This document shows positions 9,889 to 61,436 of a stretch of DNA of 64,000 bases, one piece after another. The translations under genes were made by a program, and so were the position numbers. The DNA comes from Myxococcus stipitatus. Its GTDB lineage: Bacteria; Myxococcota; Myxococcia; Myxococcales; Myxococcaceae. Where the stretch lies: contig NZ_JAKCFI010000003.1 of the NCBI RefSeq assembly GCF_021412625.1, forward strand, positions 186,001-250,000, in the 5' to 3' direction. The notes under the pieces are model-generated. The model did no database searches, was not told the DNA's origin, and saw nothing but the letters and a program-made list of their open reading frames with translations. The stretch's first letter is position 1, and the number at the start of each line of letters is the position of its first letter.

Positions 9889-11730
9889 CTATGAACAGCC
9901 CTCCGGCTGCCCCGCACCGCGCTTGAGCGCGACCAGGAGGAGGGACACGGCGGCCGGCGTCAGGCCTGGAATCCGCCGGGCCTGCCCCACGGTGGAGGGC
10001 CGGTGCGCGGTCAGCTTCTCCGCCGCCTCCGTGCTCAGCCCCCGCACCTCGCGGAAGAGGAAGCCTTCCGGAATCACCCAGCGGTCCGTGGACTCCGACT
10101 CGCGCGCCGCCGCCCGGGCCGCCTGGGCGATGTAGCCCTCGTACTTCACCTCCACCTCCACCTCCTCCGCCACGTCCGGCGAGACGCCGGGCCGCTCCCC
10201 TCCCCTGCCCTCCTCCAGCAGCCGCGCGTACGTCATCTCCGGCCGGCGCAGCTTCGTCGCCAGCCCCGTGCGCTTGAGCCGCGCCACCTCGTCCGTCACC
10301 GCGCGCTGGCGCGCCTCGGCCCGCTCCAGCGCCTCGCGGGGCAACAGCCCCACGCGGTGCCCGTGCCGCGCCAGCCGCAGGTCCGCGTTGCCCTCGCGCA
10401 GGCGCAGCCGGTGCTCGGAGCGGCTGGTGAACATGCGGAACGGCTCGTCCACGCCCTTGGTGACGAGGTCGTCCACCAGCACCGCGCCGTGCGCCTCGTC
10501 GCGCCCGAGCAGGAGCGGCGGCTCGCCCTTCACCTGGAGGCCCGCGTTGATGCCGGCCCACAGGCCCTGGAAGGCGGCCTCCTCGTAGCCGGACGTGCCG
10601 TTGAGCTGCCCGGCGAAGAACAGGCCCGCGACGGCCTTCGTCTCCAGCGTGGGCTTGAGCTGCGTGGGCGGCGCGTAGTCGTACTCGACGGCGTAGCCGT
10701 AGCGCACCACCTCCACCCGCTCCAGGCCGGGGATGGTGCGCAGGAAGTCGAACTGCACGTCCGCGGGCAGGCTGGTGGACAGGCCCGCCGGGTACACCAG
10801 CGGCGACGCCGGCCCTTCCGGCTCCAGGAACACCTGGTGCCGCTCGCGGTCCGCGAAGCGCACCACCTTGTCCTCGAGGGACGGGCAGTAGCGCGGCCCC
10901 CGGCCGACGATTTCGCCCTGGTACAGCGGCGAGCGGTGCAGGTTGTCGCGCAGCACCCGGTGCGTCTCCACCGTGGTGGAGGTGAGGCCACAGGTGACGG
11001 CGGGCTGACGGGGGAACGGCGTGCCGGAGGCCCACTCCTCGCGCGTGCGCCAGGAGAAGGGGCGCGGTGGGAAGTCCCCGGGCTGCGGCTCCACCGCGTC
11101 CCAGTCGATGCTGGCGCGCGCGAGCCGCGCCGGCGTGCCCGTCTTGAACCGGCCCAGCGTGAAGCCGAGCGAGCGCAGTGAGTCGGACAGGCCCTTGGCG
11201 GCCTCGTCGCCCAGCCGGCCGCCCACTTCCTTCTTCTCGCCCACGTGCATCAGCGCCTGGAGGAAGGTGCCCGTGGTGAGCAGCACCGCGGAGGCCGCCA
11301 CGTGCGTGCCGTCCCCCAGCGAGACGCCGGTGATACGGCCGCCTTCCGCGTGGAGCGTGGAGACCTCGCCCTCGCGCACGGTGAGGTTCGGCTCCGAGAA
11401 GAGGACCGACTGCATCACCGCCGCGTAGGCGTCTCGGTCGCAGAGGATGCGGGTGGCCTGCACCGCGGGGCCCTTGGAGGCGTTGAGCGTCTTGAAGTGC
11501 GTGCCCGCCAGGTCCGCCACGCGGCCCATCTGTCCGCCGAGCGCGTCCATTTCGCGGACGAGGTGGCCCTTGGCGGTGCCGCCCACGGCCGGGTTGCAGC
11601 TCATCACCGCGGAGCGCTCGCGCTTGAGGGTGATGCCCAGCGTCGCCAGGCCCATGCGCGCGCAGGCGAGCGCCGCCTCGCAGCCCGCGTGTCCCAGCCC
11701 CACCACGATGACGTCGTACCGGAGTCCCAT
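9889..11730 (-). CDS. mnmG: tRNA uridine-5-carboxymethylaminomethyl modification enzyme MnmG (GidA)
   Basis: MnmG is the FAD-dependent partner of MnmE; together they install the cmnm5 group on wobble uridine 34 of tRNAs using methylene-tetrahydrofolate and glycine or ammonia. The 613-residue protein has the full family layout: N-terminal FAD-binding 'VGLGHAGCEAA', 'NPAVGGTAKGH', the 'YCPSLEDKVVRF' motif, the second nucleotide-binding segment 'GLFFAGQLNGTSGYEEAA', and the helical C-terminal domain that docks on MnmE. Length is normal (E. coli about 630). The ATG at 11730 gives MGLRYDVIVVG, with no extra residues before the first beta strand. It is encoded 109 bases upstream of rsmG on the same strand. 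Its partner mnmE lies 14 kb away in the same window. Confidence 0.97.
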   Translation of the reverse strand: MGLRYDVIVVGLGHAGCEAALACARMGLATLGITLKRERSAVMSCNPAVGGTAKGHLVREMDALGGQMGRVADLAGTHFKTLNASKGPAVQATRILCDRDAYAAVMQSVLFSEPNLTVREGEVSTLHAEGGRITGVSLGDGTHVAASAVLLTTGTFLQALMHVGEKKEVGGRLGDEAAKGLSDSLRSLGFTLGRFKTGTPARLARASIDWDAVEPQPGDFPPRPFSWRTREEWASGTPFPRQPAVTCGLTSTTVETHRVLRDNLHRSPLYQGEIVGRGPRYCPSLEDKVVRFADRERHQVFLEPEGPASPLVYPAGLSTSLPADVQFDFLRTIPGLERVEVVRYGYAVEYDYAPPTQLKPTLETKAVAGLFFAGQLNGTSGYEEAAFQGLWAGINAGLQVKGEPPLLLGRDEAHGAVLVDDLVTKGVDEPFRMFTSRSEHRLRLREGNADLRLARHGHRVGLLPREALERAEARQRAVTDEVARLKRTGLATKLRRPEMTYARLLEEGRGGERPGVSPDVAEEVEVEVKYEGYIAQAARAAARESESTDRWVIPEGFLFREVRGLSTEAAEKLTAHRPSTVGQARRIPGLTPAAVSLLLVALKRGAGQPEGCS

Positions 11731-23796: not shown

Positions 23797-24014
23797 ACGG
23801 CCGGACGCTCCACCGCGCGGGGTTGTCTGGGATTGGAGTGCCCCCGAGAGGAGACACGCCCTGGGCCCCGCGCTTGCAGTTGGCGCGGGCGCGGAACCGT
23901 CTGTCGCGAGTGGACAAACCACCGGGCGGGTGGGCGCGTAGAAACCGTTCAAGGTTCGGGGACGTTCACGTTCCCAGGGCAGGTGGCCGCGGTGGGGGGC
24001 CGAGGAGCACGGCG

Positions 24015-25043
24015 ATGAAGAAGCGACTGGGGGACATCCTGTTGGAGCGCGGGGTGGTGGACGCGCTGCAGTTGCACTCGGCCCTGGCGTATCAGCGCAA
24101 GTGGGGGGTGCCGCTGGGACAGGTGGTGGTGGATCAACGCTTCTGCACGGCGGAGCAGGTCCTGGAGGCGCTGGCCGAGCAGGTGGGGCTGGAGACGGTG
24201 GACCTGGACGCGCGGCGCCCGGAGGCGGCGCTCTCCCGGCTGATTCCGGAGCGGGTGGCGCGGGCGCACCGGGTGGTGCCGCTTCGGCTGGAGGGGCCGG
24301 GGCCTCGCGACACGCTGGTGGTGGCCATGGCGGCGCCGGCGAGCCTCGCGTCGCTCGACGCGGTGAAGAGCGTGACGGGTCGCTCGCGGGTGGTGGCGAG
24401 GCTGGCCACGGACGCGGCCATCCAGCGGGCCATCGGCTGGCTGTACCGGGGCGAGACGGGCGAGGTGACGCGGCGGCCGGGCCTGGAGGGCTTCTCGCTG
24501 CCGGAGGTGGATGACGCCGCGCCGCTGGTGCTCAGCGGCAGCATGGCGGAGCTGACGCACATGGAGTCCCCGGCCGAGGCGAACGCGCTGCCGAGGCTGT
24601 CCTCGCTGGAGGAGGCGACGGCGCGGCTGTCGCCCGTGTCCCGCGCGACGACGCGCGCGAAGCTGCCCACGGTGACGCCCGCGCGTCCGCGGCCGGTGGA
24701 CCAGGTGCTGGTGTACGGCTGGGGCCGGGAGGCCGCCGCCGGGCTGGTGCGGGTGCTGAGCGAGGCGGGCCTCGCCTCGCGCGTGGCGAGCACGGAGGAC
24801 CTGCTGGACGCGTCCGAGGCGCAGGTGGTGGTGACGCCGCTGCCGTCGCTGGAGGCGCTGGGCCGCAAGGTGCGCGCGCAGGTGGTGGTGGCGGGCAAGG
24901 CGCCGGAGCTGGACCTGCCCCGGGCGCAGGCGGTGGGCGCGCGTGGCTTCCTGGCCGCGCCGGTGGATCCAGACCTGATGCTGAGGGCGGTGCGCCGGCT
25001 GGCGGGTCCGGCCGGCGGCACGTTTCTCAGGCGCGCCAGCTGA
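24015..25043 (+). CDS. GspE/PilB N-terminal (MshEN-like) domain protein
   Basis: The first 140 residues ('KRLGDILLERGVVDALQLHSAL' onward, then 'LGQVVVDQRFCTAEQVLEALA') match the N-terminal domain of GspE/PilB secretion ATPases, of which related MshEN domains bind c-di-GMP. The ATPase domain is missing. A 70-residue Ala/Arg linker follows, and the last 100 residues ('VDQVLVYGWGREAA... GARGFLAAPVDPDLML') look like a degenerate response-regulator receiver fold without a clear phospho-Asp. The whole is 342 residues. The ATG at 24015 has GAGGAG 7 bases upstream; a longer frame from 23754 is rejected. Possibly a regulator of type IV pili or type II secretion; inference only. Confidence 0.8.
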   Translation: MKKRLGDILLERGVVDALQLHSALAYQRKWGVPLGQVVVDQRFCTAEQVLEALAEQVGLETVDLDARRPEAALSRLIPERVARAHRVVPLRLEGPGPRDTLVVAMAAPASLASLDAVKSVTGRSRVVARLATDAAIQRAIGWLYRGETGEVTRRPGLEGFSLPEVDDAAPLVLSGSMAELTHMESPAEANALPRLSSLEEATARLSPVSRATTRAKLPTVTPARPRPVDQVLVYGWGREAAAGLVRVLSEAGLASRVASTEDLLDASEAQVVVTPLPSLEALGRKVRAQVVVAGKAPELDLPRAQAVGARGFLAAPVDPDLMLRAVRRLAGPAGGTFLRRAS

Positions 25044-25058
25044 GCGGCGCGAGGGAAC

Positions 25059-25658
25059 TCACGGCACGGCGGACAGCAGCGAGTCCGCGTCCTCGGACAG
25101 CCAGAGCGAGTCGAGCTCCAGCGTGGTGGAGGAGAAGGGGTCGGCGCGCACCAGGGCGTCGGATTCGTAGGCGCCGGTGAGGAGCCAGCCGCGCTTGACG
25201 CGCTGGTAGGTCTCCAGCGTGCGGGCGACGGGGTCCACCAGCCACACGTGGCCCACGCCCTGGCGCGCGTACAGCGGCAGCTTGCGCGTGCGGTCCAGCG
25301 CGGCGGTGGAGGGGGAGAGCACCTCGCAGACCCAGTCCGGGGCGAGGGTGAGGAAGGGCACGTCCGGGTCGAGCGGTCCGTCCACGCGCTCGCGGCGCCA
25401 GCCGGCCAGGTCGGGCACGAGCACGTCGTGGCCCAGGCGCAGCTCCGGGGCGCGCAGGAAGCACCAGCGCCCGCTGCCGCCGCGGCGCCGGTCGAGCTGC
25501 TCGCCCAGCTCCACGCCCAGCATGAAGGCCGCGCGCGTCTGGGCGGGCGTCGCGCGGGGTGAAGCCACCAGTTCCTCGTCGAGGACCTCGCCCACCCAGC
25601 CCGAGGGCAGGGACGTCAACAGGGAGTTGTTCGCCAGGTGGATGATGCCTTCCGTCAC
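25059..25658 (-). CDS. Uma2 family (DUF820) PD-(D/E)XK nuclease-like protein
   Basis: A 199-residue protein with the Uma2/DUF820 layout: 'GWVGEVLDEELVASP' at the N-terminus, 'VLVPDLAGWR' with the Asp, 'APDWVCEVLSPST' with the Glu and Lys region ('TRKLPLYARQGVGHVWLVDP'), all part of a restriction-endonuclease-like fold. Function in cells is unknown; the family is expanded in myxobacteria and cyanobacteria. Start is a GTG at 25658 with GGAGG four bases upstream. It runs convergent with the gene at 24015. Confidence 0.88.
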   Translation of the reverse strand: MTEGIIHLANNSLLTSLPSGWVGEVLDEELVASPRATPAQTRAAFMLGVELGEQLDRRRGGSGRWCFLRAPELRLGHDVLVPDLAGWRRERVDGPLDPDVPFLTLAPDWVCEVLSPSTAALDRTRKLPLYARQGVGHVWLVDPVARTLETYQRVKRGWLLTGAYESDALVRADPFSSTTLELDSLWLSEDADSLLSAVP

Positions 25659-25735
25659 AGCGCCTCCGAAGGTGCGGCGGTTGAGGGCGGCATTCTAGGA
25701 AGGGGTCTGACATCGCCCGGGACGGGCGGACGGCG

Positions 25736-27340
25736 TCACTTGCCGATGCAGAACCGCTGGAAGATTGCGTCGATGAGCGCCTCGGACACGGAGGTCCCGG
25801 ACACCTCACCGAGCGCCTCCAGCGCGAGCGCGACCTCGCCGGAGACGACTTCGAGGGTGGAGACGCGCGACGCGTCCTCCGCGCGGGAGAGCGCCTCGGA
25901 GGCGCGACGCAGGGCATCGGCGTGGCGCTCGGAGACGAGCGCGACCGCAGAGGGCGTGCCCGTGCCCCACAGGCGCGTGAGCAGCGCGTCGCGCAGCGCG
26001 TCCACGCCCTCGCCCGTGAGGCCGCTGACGCGGAGCCGGGGAGGGGAGGGGAGAGGCATCGAGGCCGGGGACACGGCGAGGGCGGCGAGCCCGTCGCCCG
26101 TGCTCGTCTCGGTGGCGGAGTGACGGGTTCCCGCCTCGCGCGTCGTGGCGAGCACTTCCTCCGCTTGCACCTCGGTAGCGGAGCGACGGGCTCCCACCGC
26201 ACGCGTCGTGGCGAGCCCATCGCTCGCTCGCGCAACACTCGCCGAGCCGCGAACCTCCGCCTTGGACTCCGCGGCGAGCACCCCCTCCGCGCGTGCCTCG
26301 GCGACCCCCGCCACACGACCGCCGGCCTCGCCCGCGACGTCGCACTTGCCGTCGACGCACAGCACGGGCGTGGCGCCCGCGTCACGCACCCAGCGCTCGA
26401 CGTCCGCGTCCGGCGTGCCCGGGGGCAGCACCAGCACCGCGAGGTCCACGCCGGAGAGCAGCTCGCGTGTCCGGGCGATGCCCAGCGCCTCCACGCGGCC
26501 CGGCGTCTCGCGCAACCCCGCCGTGTCGAACAGCATCACCCCCAGGCCGTTCCACTCGAGCCGCGCCTCGAGCGCGTCGCGCGTGGTGCCCGGCTCGTCG
26601 TCCACCAGCGCTCGAGCCTCGCCCACCAGCCGGTTGAAGAGCGTGGACTTGCCCGCGTTGACGGGGCCATACAGCGCCACGCGCGCGCCCTGGCGCACCA
26701 GCCGCCCGTGGCCCGCCTCGGAGAGCAGCGCCCGCGCCCGCTCGCGGAGTTCGCGCACCCGCGCGCCCGCGCCCGCGTCCGCGCCCTCCGCCTCGTCGGG
26801 GAAGTTGAGCACGCCCTCCAGGTCCGCGTGCAGCGCCCGCAGCGGCTCCTCCAGCTCGCGCACCCGCGAGGCCAGCGCGCCGGACAGCCCCGCCGCGGCC
26901 GCGCGCACGGCCGCCTCCGAGTCCGCCGCCACCAGGTCCGCCACCGCCTCCGCGCGCGTCAGGTCGATGCGCCCGTTGAGGAAGGCGCGTCGGGTGAACT
27001 CGCCCGGCGCCGCGGGACGCGCCAGCCCGTCCTCCAGCGCGCGCGCGAGCAGCAGCCGCAACAGCCGGGGACCGCCATGCGCCTGCAGTTCCACCACGTC
27101 CTCGCCCGTGAAGGACGCGGGCGCGCGGAAGTAGAGGAACAGGCCCTCGTCGAGCGCGTGTCCCTCCGCGTCCACGAAGCGGGCCAGGTACGCGTGGCGC
27201 GGCGTGGGCGCGGCGGGCACTCCCGGGGCGAGCCTCCGGCCCACCTCCAGCGCGGCGGGGCCGGACAGGCGCAGGATGCCCACGGCGCCCGAGGCGGGCG
27301 CGGTGGCCAGCGCGACGATGGTGGGGGAATCAGGCGTCAT
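25736..27340 (-). CDS. mnmE: tRNA uridine-5-carboxymethylaminomethyl modification GTPase MnmE (TrmE), with G-domain insertion
   Basis: MnmE is the GTPase partner of MnmG in wobble-U34 modification. The N-terminal folate-binding domain ('MTPDSPTIVALATAP', then 'GEFTRRAFLNGRIDLTRAEAV'), the helical domain and the terminal 'FQRFCIGK' are all canonical. In the G domain, G1 (GPVNAGKS), G2 (TTRD) and G3 (DTAG) are intact, but the G4 motif expected as NKxD reads Gly-Lys-Cys-Asp at about residues 331-334. About 80-90 extra residues, rich in Ala, Arg, Thr and Glu and internally repeated, follow it before 'VSGLTGEGVDALRDAL'. This raises the length to 534 residues against about 455 in most bacteria. The start at 27340 matches the conserved MTPD N-terminus. 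Last gene of the rpmH block. Confidence 0.95.
   Translation of the reverse strand: MTPDSPTIVALATAPASGAVGILRLSGPAALEVGRRLAPGVPAAPTPRHAYLARFVDAEGHALDEGLFLYFRAPASFTGEDVVELQAHGGPRLLRLLLARALEDGLARPAAPGEFTRRAFLNGRIDLTRAEAVADLVAADSEAAVRAAAAGLSGALASRVRELEEPLRALHADLEGVLNFPDEAEGADAGAGARVRELRERARALLSEAGHGRLVRQGARVALYGPVNAGKSTLFNRLVGEARALVDDEPGTTRDALEARLEWNGLGVMLFDTAGLRETPGRVEALGIARTRELLSGVDLAVLVLPPGTPDADVERWVRDAGATPVLCVDGKCDVAGEAGGRVAGVAEARAEGVLAAESKAEVRGSASVARASDGLATTRAVGARRSATEVQAEEVLATTREAGTRHSATETSTGDGLAALAVSPASMPLPSPPRLRVSGLTGEGVDALRDALLTRLWGTGTPSAVALVSERHADALRRASEALSRAEDASRVSTLEVVSGEVALALEALGEVSGTSVSEALIDAIFQRFCIGK
26095..26280 (-). repeat. Imperfect in-frame tandem repeat (about 60 bp units) inside mnmE
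   Basis: On the plus strand, two adjacent blocks read GGAGTGACGGGTTCCCGCC...CGTCGTGGCGAGCAC (about 26117-26155) and GGAGCGACGGGCTCCCACC...CGTCGTGGCGAGCCC (about 26177-26215). A partial further unit lies on each side. In protein they are 'DGLATTRAVGARRSATE' and 'EVLATTREAGTRHSATE'. The repeat accounts for much of the lineage-specific insertion after the G4 motif. Confidence 0.65.
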
Positions 27341-27406
27341 GTCGACCCGGAGGGCGGCGCTCGCCGCGCCGCATGCCATCCGTTCAGCGAGCGGCCACGC
27401 CCGCGC

Positions 27407-27634
27407 TCACCGGGGCCCCATGGGGGGCGTGGAGCCTCGCGCGGCCTTCTCCACCGCCTCGCGGTTCTCCTCGATGTACTTCTCGACCGCGTCGTCTTCG
27501 ATTTCCAGGTCCCGCAACACACCCGGGTAGACGAAACGGAAGGCGGGAGACTCCTCGTCTCCCCGCAGGCGGAAGCTCATCTTGAGCACCGCCGCGCCAT
27601 ACAGCTTGTCCTTGAGTCCCTTCGCCTTGCCCAT
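27407..27634 (-). CDS. Small conserved-context protein between jag and mnmE (75 aa)
   Basis: A 75-residue protein starting 'MGKAKGLKDKLYGAAVLK', with a GGGGGA ribosome-binding site eight bases upstream and only 13 bases after the jag stop, so it belongs to the rpmH-mnmE transcription unit. Basic N-terminus, a central beta-rich 'FRFVYPGVLRDLEI' and an acidic amphipathic C-terminal helix ('DDAVEKYIEENREAVEKA'). No signal peptide or membrane span. I do not recognise the family; the setting suggests RNA or ribosome-linked work, but that is inference. Confidence 0.75.
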   Translation of the reverse strand: MGKAKGLKDKLYGAAVLKMSFRLRGDEESPAFRFVYPGVLRDLEIEDDAVEKYIEENREAVEKAARGSTPPMGPR

Positions 27635-27647
27635 GCTTCGTTCCCCC

Positions 27648-28427
27648 TCACTCGTCGAGGTCGTCCTCGTCATCATCCGGCAGCAGGCTCCGCTTGGGCA
27701 GCGGCGCGGGCTTCTCCGGGGTGAACACGACGCGGCGGTTGCGGCCCTCTCCCTCGGCCGCCACCTTCACGCCCGCGGTGCCCTCCACGGCCTTCATCAC
27801 GCGCGAGCGGTCCTCCGGCTTCATCGCGGCGAGCGCGTAGAAGCGCCCCAGCCGCGCGGACTTCTCCGCGAGCTGCCGGGCCGCCTCACGCAGCGCCGCG
27901 TCCTCCTCCACCGTCAAGCCCCGCTCGTCCACGGCCTCCGCGCGGGGCGCGGGAGCCGGACGGGCGGCCTGCTGGGGCTGTCCTCGCCCCTGCTTCTGCT
28001 GCTGCCCGGGCGCCTGCTGCTGCGGCGGCGCGGCGGCGCGAGCCGGGGCCTGCTGGGGCGCCTGCGGCGGCGGCTGGGCCTGCGCGGCCGGGGCCTGCGG
28101 CTCGCGACGCGGCCGGGGCTCCGGGTGCGCGCCGGCGCCGAGCATCACCCAGCGACGCTCCACGCCGGGGCGGTGGAGCATCTTGTTGAGCAGGAACTGG
28201 AGCGAGTCCAGCACCTGCCCCCGCCGGCCCTGCTCCACGCCAGGGGGAGGGCCCGCCTCGAAGTGCAGCGCGACGGACAGGCTCCCATCCGCCGCGTCCT
28301 GCATGTCCAGCCGGGCGGGGAAGCCCATCAGCCCGAGGATGTCACCCAGGAGCTTCTCCACGCGCGGACGGAAGTCCGCCCCCGCGCTCGCCGGAGTCGC
28401 CGGCTGGGTCTGCGGCAGCTCGCTCAC
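27648..28427 (-). CDS. jag: Jag / KhpB-type RNA-binding protein (KH and R3H domains)
   Basis: The 259-residue protein has an N-terminal KH-like domain ('VEKLLGDILGLMGFPARLDM' through 'LDSLQFLLNKML'), a linker of about 70 residues dominated by Pro, Gln and Ala, and a C-terminal R3H domain with 'RFYALAAMKPEDRSRVMKAV' and 'EGRNRRVVFTP'. Jag/KhpB proteins bind small and messenger RNAs and affect division and wall synthesis. I place the start at the GTG at 28427, which overlaps the yidC stop as GTGA and has GGAGGAAG upstream within yidC, implying translational coupling. The Pro/Gln linker is unusually long for the family. Confidence 0.88.
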   Translation of the reverse strand: MSELPQTQPATPASAGADFRPRVEKLLGDILGLMGFPARLDMQDAADGSLSVALHFEAGPPPGVEQGRRGQVLDSLQFLLNKMLHRPGVERRWVMLGAGAHPEPRPRREPQAPAAQAQPPPQAPQQAPARAAAPPQQQAPGQQQKQGRGQPQQAARPAPAPRAEAVDERGLTVEEDAALREAARQLAEKSARLGRFYALAAMKPEDRSRVMKAVEGTAGVKVAAEGEGRNRRVVFTPEKPAPLPKRSLLPDDDEDDLDE

Positions 28428-30241
28428 TTGCGTCTTCCTCCCGCGGCCGCCACCGCGGGCGTGCCTCCACCCGTCTGCGGCTTGTTGCGGTCCAGCCACT
28501 TCCTCAGCCCGTACTGCTGGGCGATGGAGAGGATGTTGTTGGTGAAGATGTAGAGGGACAGGCCCGCCGGGTACTGCAGCAGCGTCAGGGTGAAGATGAC
28601 GGGCACGAACCAGGTCATGATCTTCGCCTGCGTCGCATCCATCATCTGCGGCTGCATCTTCTGGGTGATGACCATCGACACGCCCAGCGCCAGCGGCAGC
28701 AGGTACGTGGGGTCCTTGTAGGTCAGGTCGCGCCAGACGGGGCCGAAGAAGGGCTCACCGTACAGGTCGAAGCTGTTGCGCAGCGCCGTGAACAAGGCGA
28801 TCCACACCGGCATCTGGATGAGCAGCGGGAGGCACCCGCCCAGCGGGTTCACCTTGGCCTCCTGGTACAGCTTCATGATCTCCAGGTTCTGCTGCTCGCG
28901 GTTGTCCGCGAACTTCTTGCGGATCTCCTCCATGCGCGGCTGGAGCTTCTTCACCTCTTCCATGCTGACCATGGAGCGGTAGGTGAGCGGCAGCAGCACC
29001 AGCTTCACCACCACGGTGAGCAGGATGATGGCCACGCCCCAGTTGCCCGTCAGGCCGTGGAAGAACTTCATCACCGCGAGGAGGATCTTGCAGATGACCG
29101 CCCAGATGCCGAAGTCGACCGTGTCCTCGAGGGCCGGGTGGAACGCGCCCGCGGCGCCCAGGCCGGCCGTCTCGCGCAGCGCGGGGCCCGGCACGACGGA
29201 CATCAGGTCCGGGTCCTTGGGGCCCAGGTAGCCGCCCAGCCGCAGCGTCACCGTCTCGCCGGGGGCCACGCTGAGCGGGAAGGCCGCCGTCACCTGGCGC
29301 GCGGTGGGCGTCGCCTCCAGGATGCAGTGGCCGGCGCGCGGACCCTCCAGCGGGTAGAGCGCGGAGAGGAAGTACTGCTGGTTGATGCCGAAGTAGTGGA
29401 TCTGCCCCTTCGTGTCCTCGGGCTTGTCGTCGCCCGGGTTCATGTTGTGGAGCTTCTCGTCCACGAAGCAGGCGGAGCGGCTCAGGTTGCCCACGCCACC
29501 GAAGAAGGACGGCGCGTGCTCGAAGTTCGGGTCGATGGCGCGGGCGTAGTGCACCCGCAGCTCGCCGTTCTGCGCCTGGGCGGACGTGTTCTTCACCTGG
29601 ATGGTGTAGACGAGCTCGAAGCCCTCCTGGGGCCACTGCAGCTTCTTCACCACCTCCCACGGGCCCTGGCGGCCGGTGAAGGTGACGGCCTCCGCGTTGC
29701 CCTGGGCGCTCTCGTCCACCGCGTAGGGGACGTTGGCGGGCAGGGGGCTGGAGCCCTCGATGGTGACCGACAGCGGCAGCGGCTGGCCCGGCACCGGCTG
29801 CGCCAGGTTCATCTGCGGCGGCGGCGGGATCTCCTTGCCGAACAGCTGCTGGAAGCCCTGGGCGAGCGTGAGCGAGTGCTGCTCGCGCATCTTCGCGCCC
29901 TGCAGCTGCGCCGACGTCAGGCCCGCGCCCGTGGTGCTGAACCGGTAGACGGACTCCTTGCGGGTCAGCGTCACCTGGCGCTCGGGCGGCGGGGGCGTGG
30001 CCTCGGCCGGAGTGCCGGTGGAGGGCGGCGTCTCACCGGAGGGCGGCAGGGCGGCCTGGGCGCCGGTGCCCGCGTCGCCTCCGACCTGGGCGGCCACGCC
30101 CGCGTCCCCGCCCGCCGCCTCCGGCGGCGGCTTGGGGGGAAAGAGGTACATCCATCCGGCGGTGACCGCGAAGGACAGCAGCAGGGCGACCAGCAGCCGC
30201 TTCTGGGAGTCGTTCGACTGGGGCGAGAGCGGATCGTTCAT
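28424..30241 (-). CDS. yidC: Membrane protein insertase YidC
   Basis: YidC inserts and folds inner-membrane proteins alone or with SecYEG. The 605-residue protein has an N-terminal anchor (residues about 14-32), an acidic Ala/Pro-rich stretch, the large periplasmic beta domain of Gram-negative YidC, and the conserved insertase core from about residue 390 ('NWGVAIILLTVVVKLVLLPL', 'NPLGGCLPLLIQMPVWIALF'). A short basic tail ends 'GGRRK'. The start at 30241 follows GGAGGG at 6 bases. Within the rpmH-rnpA-yidD-yidC-jag-mnmE order, and overlapping jag by 4 bases. Confidence 0.97.
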   Translation of the reverse strand: MNDPLSPQSNDSQKRLLVALLLSFAVTAGWMYLFPPKPPPEAAGGDAGVAAQVGGDAGTGAQAALPPSGETPPSTGTPAEATPPPPERQVTLTRKESVYRFSTTGAGLTSAQLQGAKMREQHSLTLAQGFQQLFGKEIPPPPQMNLAQPVPGQPLPLSVTIEGSSPLPANVPYAVDESAQGNAEAVTFTGRQGPWEVVKKLQWPQEGFELVYTIQVKNTSAQAQNGELRVHYARAIDPNFEHAPSFFGGVGNLSRSACFVDEKLHNMNPGDDKPEDTKGQIHYFGINQQYFLSALYPLEGPRAGHCILEATPTARQVTAAFPLSVAPGETVTLRLGGYLGPKDPDLMSVVPGPALRETAGLGAAGAFHPALEDTVDFGIWAVICKILLAVMKFFHGLTGNWGVAIILLTVVVKLVLLPLTYRSMVSMEEVKKLQPRMEEIRKKFADNREQQNLEIMKLYQEAKVNPLGGCLPLLIQMPVWIALFTALRNSFDLYGEPFFGPVWRDLTYKDPTYLLPLALGVSMVITQKMQPQMMDATQAKIMTWFVPVIFTLTLLQYPAGLSLYIFTNNILSIAQQYGLRKWLDRNKPQTGGGTPAVAAAGGRRK

Positions 30242-59898: not shown

Positions 59899-61436
59899 GT
59901 CCCGATGGCCGTGATGCCTGATGGCGTTGAGCACTTGTTGCGCGCGGGCCAGAAGGTTCCCGGGCGGCTGTCCCGATGGCCGTGATGCCTGATGGCGTTG
60001 AGCACCTACGAACAGCCCACCCATCAGCGGCCAATCCGCGAGTCCCGATGGCCGTGATGCCTGATGGCGTTGAGCACCCTTTGACCTTGGCGGTCCTCAC
60101 CTCGCTGTAAGGGAGGGGGTCCCGATGGCCGTGATGCCTGATGGCGTTGAGCACACCACGCCCGAGAGCTCGAACTCCTGGACGGACGTCCCGATGGCCG
60201 TGATGCCTGATGGCGTTGAGCACCCGCTCGCGGTTGGCCTGCTGGCGCAGTTGCTCGGTCCCGATGGCCGTGATGCCTGATGGCGTTGAGCACCCGAGCT
60301 TCTCCATTTCCTTGACGAGGGATGACTGTCTCGATGGCCGTGATGCCTGATGGCGTTGAGCACGAGATAGTCTCCATGGGAATAAAGATGTCGAAATGTG
60401 TGCCGATGGCCGTGATGCCTGATGGCGTTGAGCACTTGAGCCGGACTGCACACCGCCCCTTGTATCCCTGGTGCCGATGGCCGTGATGCCTGCTGGCGTT
60501 GAGCACCCGCTCCCGCGACTGACCCTCGTTCGGGCCGAGACGTGCCGATGGCCGTGATGCCTGATGGCGTTGAGCACTTGTTGTCCCAGGCGACCACGCC
60601 CAGGAAGACGTCGTGCCGATGGCCGTGATGCCTGATGGCGTTGAGCACACTCCACGCCGCGCCGGCTCACGTAGTGGTGAGCCAGTGCCGATGGCCGTGA
60701 TGCTGATGGCGTTGAGCACATCTCAGCTGTACTTCGATGAATGAAATCGTTGGCGTGCCGATGACCGTGATGCCTGATGGCGTTGAGCACCCTCACTGTC
60801 ATCGAGTACGCCTCTGTCTCTGGCGTGCCGATGGCCGTGATGCCTGATGGCGTTGAGCACCATCGACTGCGCGGCGGCCAGTCTCTCCGGCCCGATGGTG
60901 CCGATGGCCGTGATGCCTGATGGCGTTGAGCACGTCCCTGCGGGTGAGTGTATTGACGGCCTGCCCTGTGTTCCGATGGCCGTGATGCCTGATGGCGTTG
61001 AGCACACCTTTTTCGCCGTGGCGCGAACCTTATTGACCGGTGCCGATGGCCGTGATGCCTGATGGCGTTGAGCACTCGAACTCGACGGCGACGAACGGCA
61101 CCCGCAGGTTCGGTGCCGATGGCCGTGATGCCTGATGGCGTTGAGCACGTGAGGGAGAAGGTGAGGAGGTGCTTCCGGCCGAAGTCCCGATGGCCGTGAT
61201 GCCTGATGGCGTTGAGCACTCGCAAGCGCGAGAATCGTCCCTCGGGTCATCGTCTGTCCCGATGGCCGTGATGCCTGTTGGCGTTGAGCACTCCAGGCCG
61301 AAAGAGTTGGCCATGTCGATCTTGAGGTCCCGATAGCCGTGATGCCTGATGGCGTTGAGCACACGTGATCATCCGGGTAGTCCGTACCGAACTGGAACGT
61401 GTCCCGATGGCCGTGATGCCTGATGGCGTTGAGCAA
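59899..61436 (+). CRISPR. CRISPR array: 22 repeats of 36 bp, 21 spacers; no cas genes in the window
   Basis: The repeat begins GTSCCGATGGCC, has TGATGCCTGATGG in the middle and ends GCGTTGAGCAC. The first is 59899-59934 and the last 61401-61436. Spacers are 33-41 bases and all different. The first six repeats (to 60293) are identical. Later ones carry single changes: CTCGATGG at 60328, TGCTGGCG at 60471, a 1-base deletion at 60685, GATGACC at 60755, TTCCG at 60970, TGTTGG at 61256, GATAGCC at 61327. The last repeat has C to A at its final base, and half a repeat (GTCCCGATGGC) follows at 61478. Decay to the right and the terminal GTTGAGCAC, like an 8-nt crRNA tag, both point to rightward transcription. 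Confidence 0.95.

Follow-up and report, generated by a model that had tools for sequence, protein, structure and literature searches.

The MnmE/TrmE family (GTPBP3, MSS1) comprises K+-dependent, dimerising GTPases of tRNA modification. Guanine is selected by the Asp of the NKxD motif at G4, and in Rho proteins the insert follows G4 directly. MnmE is described, in the accessible portions of two reports, as a GTPase of low nucleotide affinity and high intrinsic hydrolysis that cycles without a GEF (PMC3695501, PMC2749940). The two MnmE–MnmG surfaces that PMC12397908 describes, in its available part, for the alpha2beta2 complex draw on the N-terminal and the helical domain. In the excerpt of PMC5101219, septins bind GTP with AKAD at G4, and the excerpt of a PDB survey gives NKxD as absent from 43.3% of guanine-binding complexes (PMC11594714). 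The Rho insert helix is an extra segment, placed after a strand and before a helix or the reverse, in a Ras-like G domain and varies between members (excerpts of PMC9408373 and PMC2941746), and Rickettsia palindromic elements, in-frame MITE insertions, place a dispersed repeat in frame within housekeeping genes (excerpt of PMC10969869).

We analysed a stretch of 64,000 nucleotides from Myxococcus stipitatus, hereafter the window, which encodes an MnmE with the following features:

25736–27379, minus strand: mnmE (trmE), 547 aa; the second Met, at 27340, is a possible start
26645–26668, minus strand: G1 (P-loop), GPVNAGKS, by motif reading
26339–26350, minus strand: G4 motif, GKCD in place of NKxD, aa 344–347, by its aligned column
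26027–26338, minus strand: G4–G5 linker, 104 residues, aa 348–451, by length count; predicted disordered from pLDDT
26012–26026, minus strand: G5 motif, SGLTG (SA to SG), by alignment and motif reading
25739–25753, minus strand: C-terminal FCIGK, by motif reading; fits FC(I/V/L)GK

The window protein exceeded the Pfam cut-offs for TrmE_N (126.8 bits; cut-off 29.8), MMR_HSR1 (68.3; 21.9) and MnmE_helical (134.1; 40.1), and passed the NCBIfam equivalog TIGR00450 (265 bits; cut-off 252.6). It missed the equivalog NF003661 (357.6 vs 380 bits), whose cut-off is a naming threshold that we did not treat as defining MnmE membership. Both short-linker relatives tested also missed NF003661 (363 and 372 bits), indicating that the shortfall does not come from the insert alone; one MnmE of family f8, in the same order, passed at 406.2 bits. 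The predicted fold best matched the MnmE of PDB 9hip, a solved MnmE–MnmG complex (E 4.4e-31), which we take to be the E. coli protein. With MnmE/TrmE, the window protein shares the three domains, G1, GTTRD, G3 and FCIGK; it differs by GKCD for NKxD, by SG for SA in G5 and by the 104-residue linker, which is predicted to be disordered. As the earlier note on this DNA had claimed, the motifs other than G4 were kept (GPVNAGKS, PGTTRD, DTAG, SGLTG and FCIGK). The sequence is best read as that of an ordinary MnmE that hydrolyses GTP and has a permissive loop; K+-stimulated hydrolysis and, with MnmG, cmnm5U34 formation are predicted for it. An Rfam scan of 24000–30000 at the gathering threshold gave no RNA element, and a consensus scan of 25600–27700 gave no promoter or terminator around mnmE. 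Directly downstream of mnmE lies a Uma2-family gene (Pfam: putative restriction endonuclease) at 25059–25658 on the minus strand.

For comparison, 134 MnmE sequences were fetched, with one genome per species in the set, and 129 were parsed; the pattern failed in G076 (G4 SKSD found, G5 not), G089, G154, G164 and one G168 copy. The window's GTDB family had a match in 89 of 96 genomes, 86 of them available as a sequence and 84 parsed by script. Matched genomes left out of the sequence set were G047, G057 and G094 (fragments), G167, G174, G186, G192 and G193. The phylum sample consists of search returns (140 of 195 genomes matched) and is not random. The 64 non-myxococcal loci were taken from the best 80 matches to a myxococcal query and are mostly Gammaproteobacteria. 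One locus (L045, BNCN01000009.1, titled Comamonas sp. KCTC 72670) is probably a mislabelled record; its MnmE is identical to the one in G014 (L031), a genome that belongs to the window's genus.

GKCD aligned with the NKxD of 9hip MnmE (DGKCDVAGE under RNKADITGE) and also occupied the NKxD column in a 22-row MnmE alignment. Because it sits in this column in both alignments, there is no proper NKxD elsewhere in the domain; the check for one came out negative, and the reading of G4 as GKCD in the earlier note is confirmed. Canonical NKxD is usual at G4, not defining for MnmE: the window MnmE lacks it, and Thr, Ser, Ala and Gly also occur at the first position in the phylum. Der (ANKLD, VNKWD) and Era (INKID) of the window's genome carry canonical NKxD.

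GKCD was found in 27/27 genomes of the window's GTDB genus, those with 12-residue linkers included; judged by MnmE sequences identical to those of named records, this set contains M. xanthus AM003, M. llanfairpwllgwyngyllgogerychwyrndrobwllllantysiliogogogochensis, M. qinghaiensis and Pyxidicoccus caerfyrddinensis. The linker of the AM003 gene has 12 residues. The Asn of NKxD was kept in none of the 86 MnmE sequences of the family. The first G4 residue in the 84 script-parsed rows was Gly in 72, Ser in 8, Ala in 3 and Thr in 1, and the remaining two sequences, taken from printed output, read SKSD (G076) and TRGD (G089). Family f8 had NKxD in 5/5. The other 36 parsed rows of the phylum held Asn (13), Thr (13), Ser (8) and Gly (2), and the non-myxococcal loci held Asn in 63/64, with NKID of L068 and NKRD of L102 read by eye, and Ser in one (L077). 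The earlier note regarded the G4 change as a degeneration of this protein beside its insert; given the genus-wide occurrence of GKCD, short linkers included, and the wide replacement of Asn by Ser, Ala, Thr or Gly in the phylum sample, neither the degeneration nor a tie to the insert is supported. On a 93-row tree (quick type, without bootstrap, with long branches, built without G4 and the linker), the first G4 residue required 10 changes, so a single clean loss of Asn is a simplification.

Because the search pattern for G4 demanded xKxD, Lys and Asp were fixed in advance in all 129 parsed rows, and their conservation is taken from the alignments instead. In the 22-row alignment both were invariant, and in an alignment of 64 rows Lys was invariant and Asp was present in at least 90%; exceptions were G089 (TRGD), one G168 copy (TQAD) and L093 (NKCE). 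Across the 129 parsed rows, a Gly at G4 was accompanied by Gly as the second G5 residue in 73/74 cases and an Asn at G4 by Ala at that position in 19/19; this pairing is partly explained by shared descent. The Gly pair offers a test of the need for the Asn of NKxD in guanine recognition by a low-affinity GTPase. Like the window MnmE, septins carry a small residue for Asn and keep Lys and Asp (excerpt of PMC5101219); they differ in standing outside the MnmE family, in having Ala as this residue and in making other base contacts. Judged from the sequences, the Asn is most likely dispensable in this MnmE lineage, and guanine would probably be held by Asp, Lys and main-chain groups of G5.

We defined the linker as the stretch between the G4 Asp and the G5 Ser and compared it in a clade of 64 genomes (Myxococcus, Corallococcus, Citreicoccus, Archangium, Hyalangium and near genera). 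Its length ranged from 11 to 223 residues (median 25.5), with at least 30 residues in 32/64 members. Since 31–32 of the 64 linkers have only 11–21 residues, about 90 residues of the window linker are extra, in agreement with the 80–90 residues directly after G4 given in the earlier note. Its placement of the insert beside G4 also held, whereas its lower limit of 26080 (range 26080–26360) did not, as the linker extends down to 26027. Aligning MnmE from Myxococcales to see how far the insertion had spread, as had been suggested, revealed long linkers in half of this clade. Neither GKCD nor the long linker is peculiar to the window strain.

The other measured segments of MnmE were constant in length within one residue across the clade: TIxA to G1 was 221 in 52/52 rows with the start pattern (12 rows had no pattern match), G1 to G3 was 44 in 64/64, G3 to G4 was 58–59 and G5 to the end was 97 in 64/64. 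The control protein, Der, could be matched along 458 residues and exactly 1374 bases in 26/26 congeners, with no net length change. The fixed length of Der, together with the NKxD kept in Der and Era, bears out the claim that a repeat-derived insert beside the base-recognition loop is unusual. Outside the clade, linkers of at least 30 residues occurred in 2/20 other family rows and 2/36 other phylum rows. Long linkers can also develop outside these groups, as seen at two of the non-myxococcal loci, in Moraxella caprae (L051, 51 residues) and a Christensenella (L069, 66 residues). Such a loop, spanning 11–223 residues while the other segments stay within one residue in a widely conserved enzyme, is a natural experiment on the amount of disorder that can be tolerated in a G domain next to the base pocket.

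The distribution of long and short linkers over the 84 family rows needed 18 changes on the tree, at least 9 of them forced by starred branches, and short linkers (11–21) sometimes adjoined long ones on the clade tree. Shuffled labels gave a mean of 26.6 changes vs the 18 seen, so long linkers are clustered on the tree, which suggests that they persist for a while. Linkers thus appear to have been gained and lost many times and yet to last for some time. By eye, no motif was common to linkers of different genera.

The middle of the window linker is occupied by three 21-residue units and a partial fourth:

26222–26284, minus strand: repeat unit 1, 21 aa, GVLAAESKAEVRGSASVARAS; 63-nt lag, boundary by eye
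26159–26221, minus strand: repeat unit 2, 21 aa, DGLATTRAVGARRSATEVQAE; 63-nt lag, boundary by eye
26096–26158, minus strand: repeat unit 3, 21 aa, EVLATTREAGTRHSATETSTG; 63-nt lag, boundary by eye
26072–26095, minus strand: partial repeat unit 4, DGLAALAV; boundary by eye

Two full copies of this 63-nt direct repeat were 75% identical. Taken across the full linker, lag-63 identity was 0.514, a value equalled by the best lag in 1 of 2000 codon shuffles, and the best repeat segment (150 nt, 65% identity) had a segment score reached in 0/30 shuffles. The repeat was absent from the output of Tandem Repeats Finder at score 40. The claim of an imperfect in-frame repeat thus stands, whereas the term minisatellite is too strong for copies that have diverged and that this program passes over. 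The best explanation of the 63-nt repeat is one local in-frame duplication event of a kind also seen in relatives.

The repeat in 18 of the 34 family linkers of at least 30 residues was reached by none of 30 codon shuffles, and the lag was divisible by 3 in 14 of these 18. The other 16 had no repeat beyond chance by this test, and duplication is therefore not established for them. The copied unit includes the G4 strand and motif in G008 and G017, where the second copies have decayed, and the start of G5 in G010 and G001; the G028 linker has a 5-residue unit and the G056 linker a 40-residue duplication. The linkers of the Archangium genus group (5/6 genomes) and of G080 hold a stretch that is a dispersed repeat. 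Counting the mnmE copy and partial matches, and with no more than 150 candidates scored per genome, a 34-aa Archangium stretch occurred at at least 46, at least 38 and at least 14 places in G029, G033 and G080, respectively; no repeat of this type was found among the matches listed for G038, G078 and G035. In G029 and G033 (L161, L163), where the dispersed repeat translates as PHPDPLPEGEG...TLTPSLSRGERG, some copies lie inside long open frames. By these comparisons, linkers have arisen repeatedly: through in-frame duplications, some of which took in G4 or G5, and, in Archangium, through a dispersed repeat.

We also considered a dispersed-repeat origin for the window linker. Against its own genome it gave only four further matches of 34–68 bases and at most 40.1 bits; this origin was rejected because the genome holds no long copies, and plasmid records gave no match. 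Like the Rickettsia elements, the Archangium linkers carry a dispersed repeat in frame in a housekeeping gene, a likeness of dispersal and frame. The window linker differs from those elements as a local duplication without long dispersed copies. Among known inserts, the one in Rho proteins comes closest in the excerpts consulted. In contrast to its 12 residues, which are helical and functional, MnmE linkers have 11–223 residues, are predicted to be disordered and share no sequence between genera. Going by the same excerpts, small residues at the Asn position (septins), the absence of NKxD in guanine binders and in-frame repeats (Rickettsia) are already known. Titles and abstract openings of the matches listed in a search of the open full-text literature contained no description of a hypervariable MnmE linker.

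Next, we compared the selection on the linker and on the rest of the protein. In 15 pairs of relatives, which are not all independent as some share members, linker pN/pS was 0.29–0.96 in 14 pairs (0.63–0.96 in 11 of the 15) and 3.42 in one pair of 18 codons, with noise added by alignment error in the linker; the MnmE body had 0.04–0.23 in the same pairs. Linker values below 1 in 14/15 pairs suggest that some constraint, or alignment error, is left. Evolution of the linker would accordingly be described as relaxed rather than strictly neutral, and as much looser than that of the body. GC3 of the 32 long linkers was 0.76 vs 0.90 in the body, a value that is still high, and the order-promoting residues WCFIYVLM made up 18.8% of the long linkers vs 29.2% of the body. 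In an AlphaFold model built with 64 alignment rows, pLDDT was below 50 at modelled-chain residues 341–428, which are 88 of the 104 linker residues, and was 69–98 in 10-residue blocks outside the linker. In the model of a compact relative, the elements followed a similar order and the stretch from G4 to G5 held no helix. The window linker is predicted on this basis to be disordered.

We consider it likely, at a probability of about 0.7, that the window encodes a working MnmE GTPase, that the guanine-reading edge of this enzyme was remodelled in the family long ago and that its G4–G5 loop is now a permissive site. The Asn of NKxD, absent throughout the sampled family, would have been lost before or early in it. 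In the Myxococcus/Corallococcus/Archangium/Hyalangium clade, Gly would then have become fixed at G4 and SG would have replaced SA in G5, and guanine may be held by the kept Asp and Lys together with main-chain groups. In an enzyme of low nucleotide affinity that needs no exchange factor, as the excerpts of published work describe MnmE, such a loss would cost little. The region between G4 and G5 is predicted to have no notable regular helix and its long form to be disordered; into this loop in-frame duplications and, in Archangium, the dispersed repeat have entered. Selection against insertions was probably only weak while the frame was kept, and may come and go between species, as the tree and pN/pS suggest. 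Because linker length and sequence differ widely while the rest of the protein keeps its size, the spot probably tolerates almost anything and has no new job. The linker may also serve as a species marker or as a permissive site for tagging MnmE.

The linker could instead be a functional disordered arm that is specific to the lineage and sits at the guanine edge of the G domain. It would bind a partner or tune nucleotide exchange or the closure of the G domains, as the Rho insert does in a comparable position, and its sequence would diverge because only bulk properties matter. Half of the clade retains at least 30 residues, the long linkers are biased in composition and clustered on the tree, their pN/pS is mostly below 1, and the CDC42 insert helix (aa 124–135) is a known binding site (excerpt of PMC9408373). 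However, the other 31–32 of 64 members manage with 11–21 residues, sometimes beside long ones on the tree, no motif joins the genera by eye, pN/pS is 0.63–0.96 in 11/15 pairs, and the same place is filled by sequences of unrelated origin; we consider such an arm unlikely, if the least so among the alternatives. Very slightly more doubtful is a version in which the Gly substitutions at G4 and G5 rewired the guanine pocket and freed the loop for species-specific disordered arms, some grown by copying G4 or G5, that tune nucleotide exchange or recruit partners; MnmE would then be a housekeeping GTPase carrying a fast-evolving regulatory appendage. The earlier note had suggested that the G4 Gly and the adjoining insert alter nucleotide specificity. 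With Asn gone and the Ala of G5 changed to Gly along with it, both guanine-reading loops are indeed non-canonical, but Lys is invariant and Asp invariant or at least 90% conserved in the alignments, in the phylum sample Asn widely gives way to Ser, Thr, Ala or Gly, short linkers are also seen beside GKCD, and both septin AKAD and the 43.3% of guanine-binding complexes without NKxD (excerpts cited above) point the same way. An altered specificity is not supported, and we rate it as improbable. Altered partner binding, suggested alongside it, is unlikely on present structures: as the known MnmG contacts of the alpha2beta2 complex map to the N-terminal and the helical domain (available part of PMC12397908), a flexible G-domain arm should not block the complex.

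Decay of MnmE in this lineage, towards the loss seen elsewhere in the order, would agree with the genomes in which both MnmE and MnmG were unmatched (12 listed f2 genomes, G108 of f3 and six genomes of the window's family), but the MnmE body is under strong purifying selection (pN/pS 0.04–0.23), one open frame runs from G1 to the C-terminus in the 84 parsed family rows, and the catalytic motifs and MnmG are intact, which makes decay highly improbable. High GC and an internal repeat are common sources of assembly error; an assembly or frame artefact in the window genome can nevertheless be practically dismissed, as intact in-frame long linkers of other sequence occur elsewhere, including the single-contig genomes G008, G010, G017 and G028, and the window linker has no long copy in its own genome (best extra match 40 bits).

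The partner enzyme is encoded in the same window, 14 kb from mnmE:

9889–11730, minus strand: mnmG (gidA), partner enzyme, 613 aa; TIGR00136 711.5 bits, cut-off 524.85

MnmG matches in most of the window's family spanned about 1–480 of the 616 profile positions, and we examined whether MnmG had lost its MnmE-binding C-terminus. Such damage was rejected, as GIDA and both C-terminal Pfam domains of the window MnmG were over their cut-offs; these domains and the two-stretch match to TIGR00136 indicate that the short match is a split match. The first C-terminal helical domain of the window MnmG was matched only at 43–94 of 96, a shortened stretch there too, and most family genomes show an equally short first MnmG match.

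MnmE (PF10396) and MnmG (TIGR00136) were both unmatched in the 12 listed f2 genomes, G108 (f3), G034, G072, G073, G081, G082 and G093; G108 is a single contig rated 100% complete. MnmA (TIGR00420) was matched in 14/14 genomes tested (13/14 over the cut-off), 12 of which are without MnmEG. The absence of MnmE and MnmG with MnmA kept is a joint loss in a widely conserved wobble-uridine pathway. Elsewhere in the window, Tandem Repeats Finder reported a CRISPR-like array at 60258–61362, with repeats of about 36 bp and a period of 70–73.
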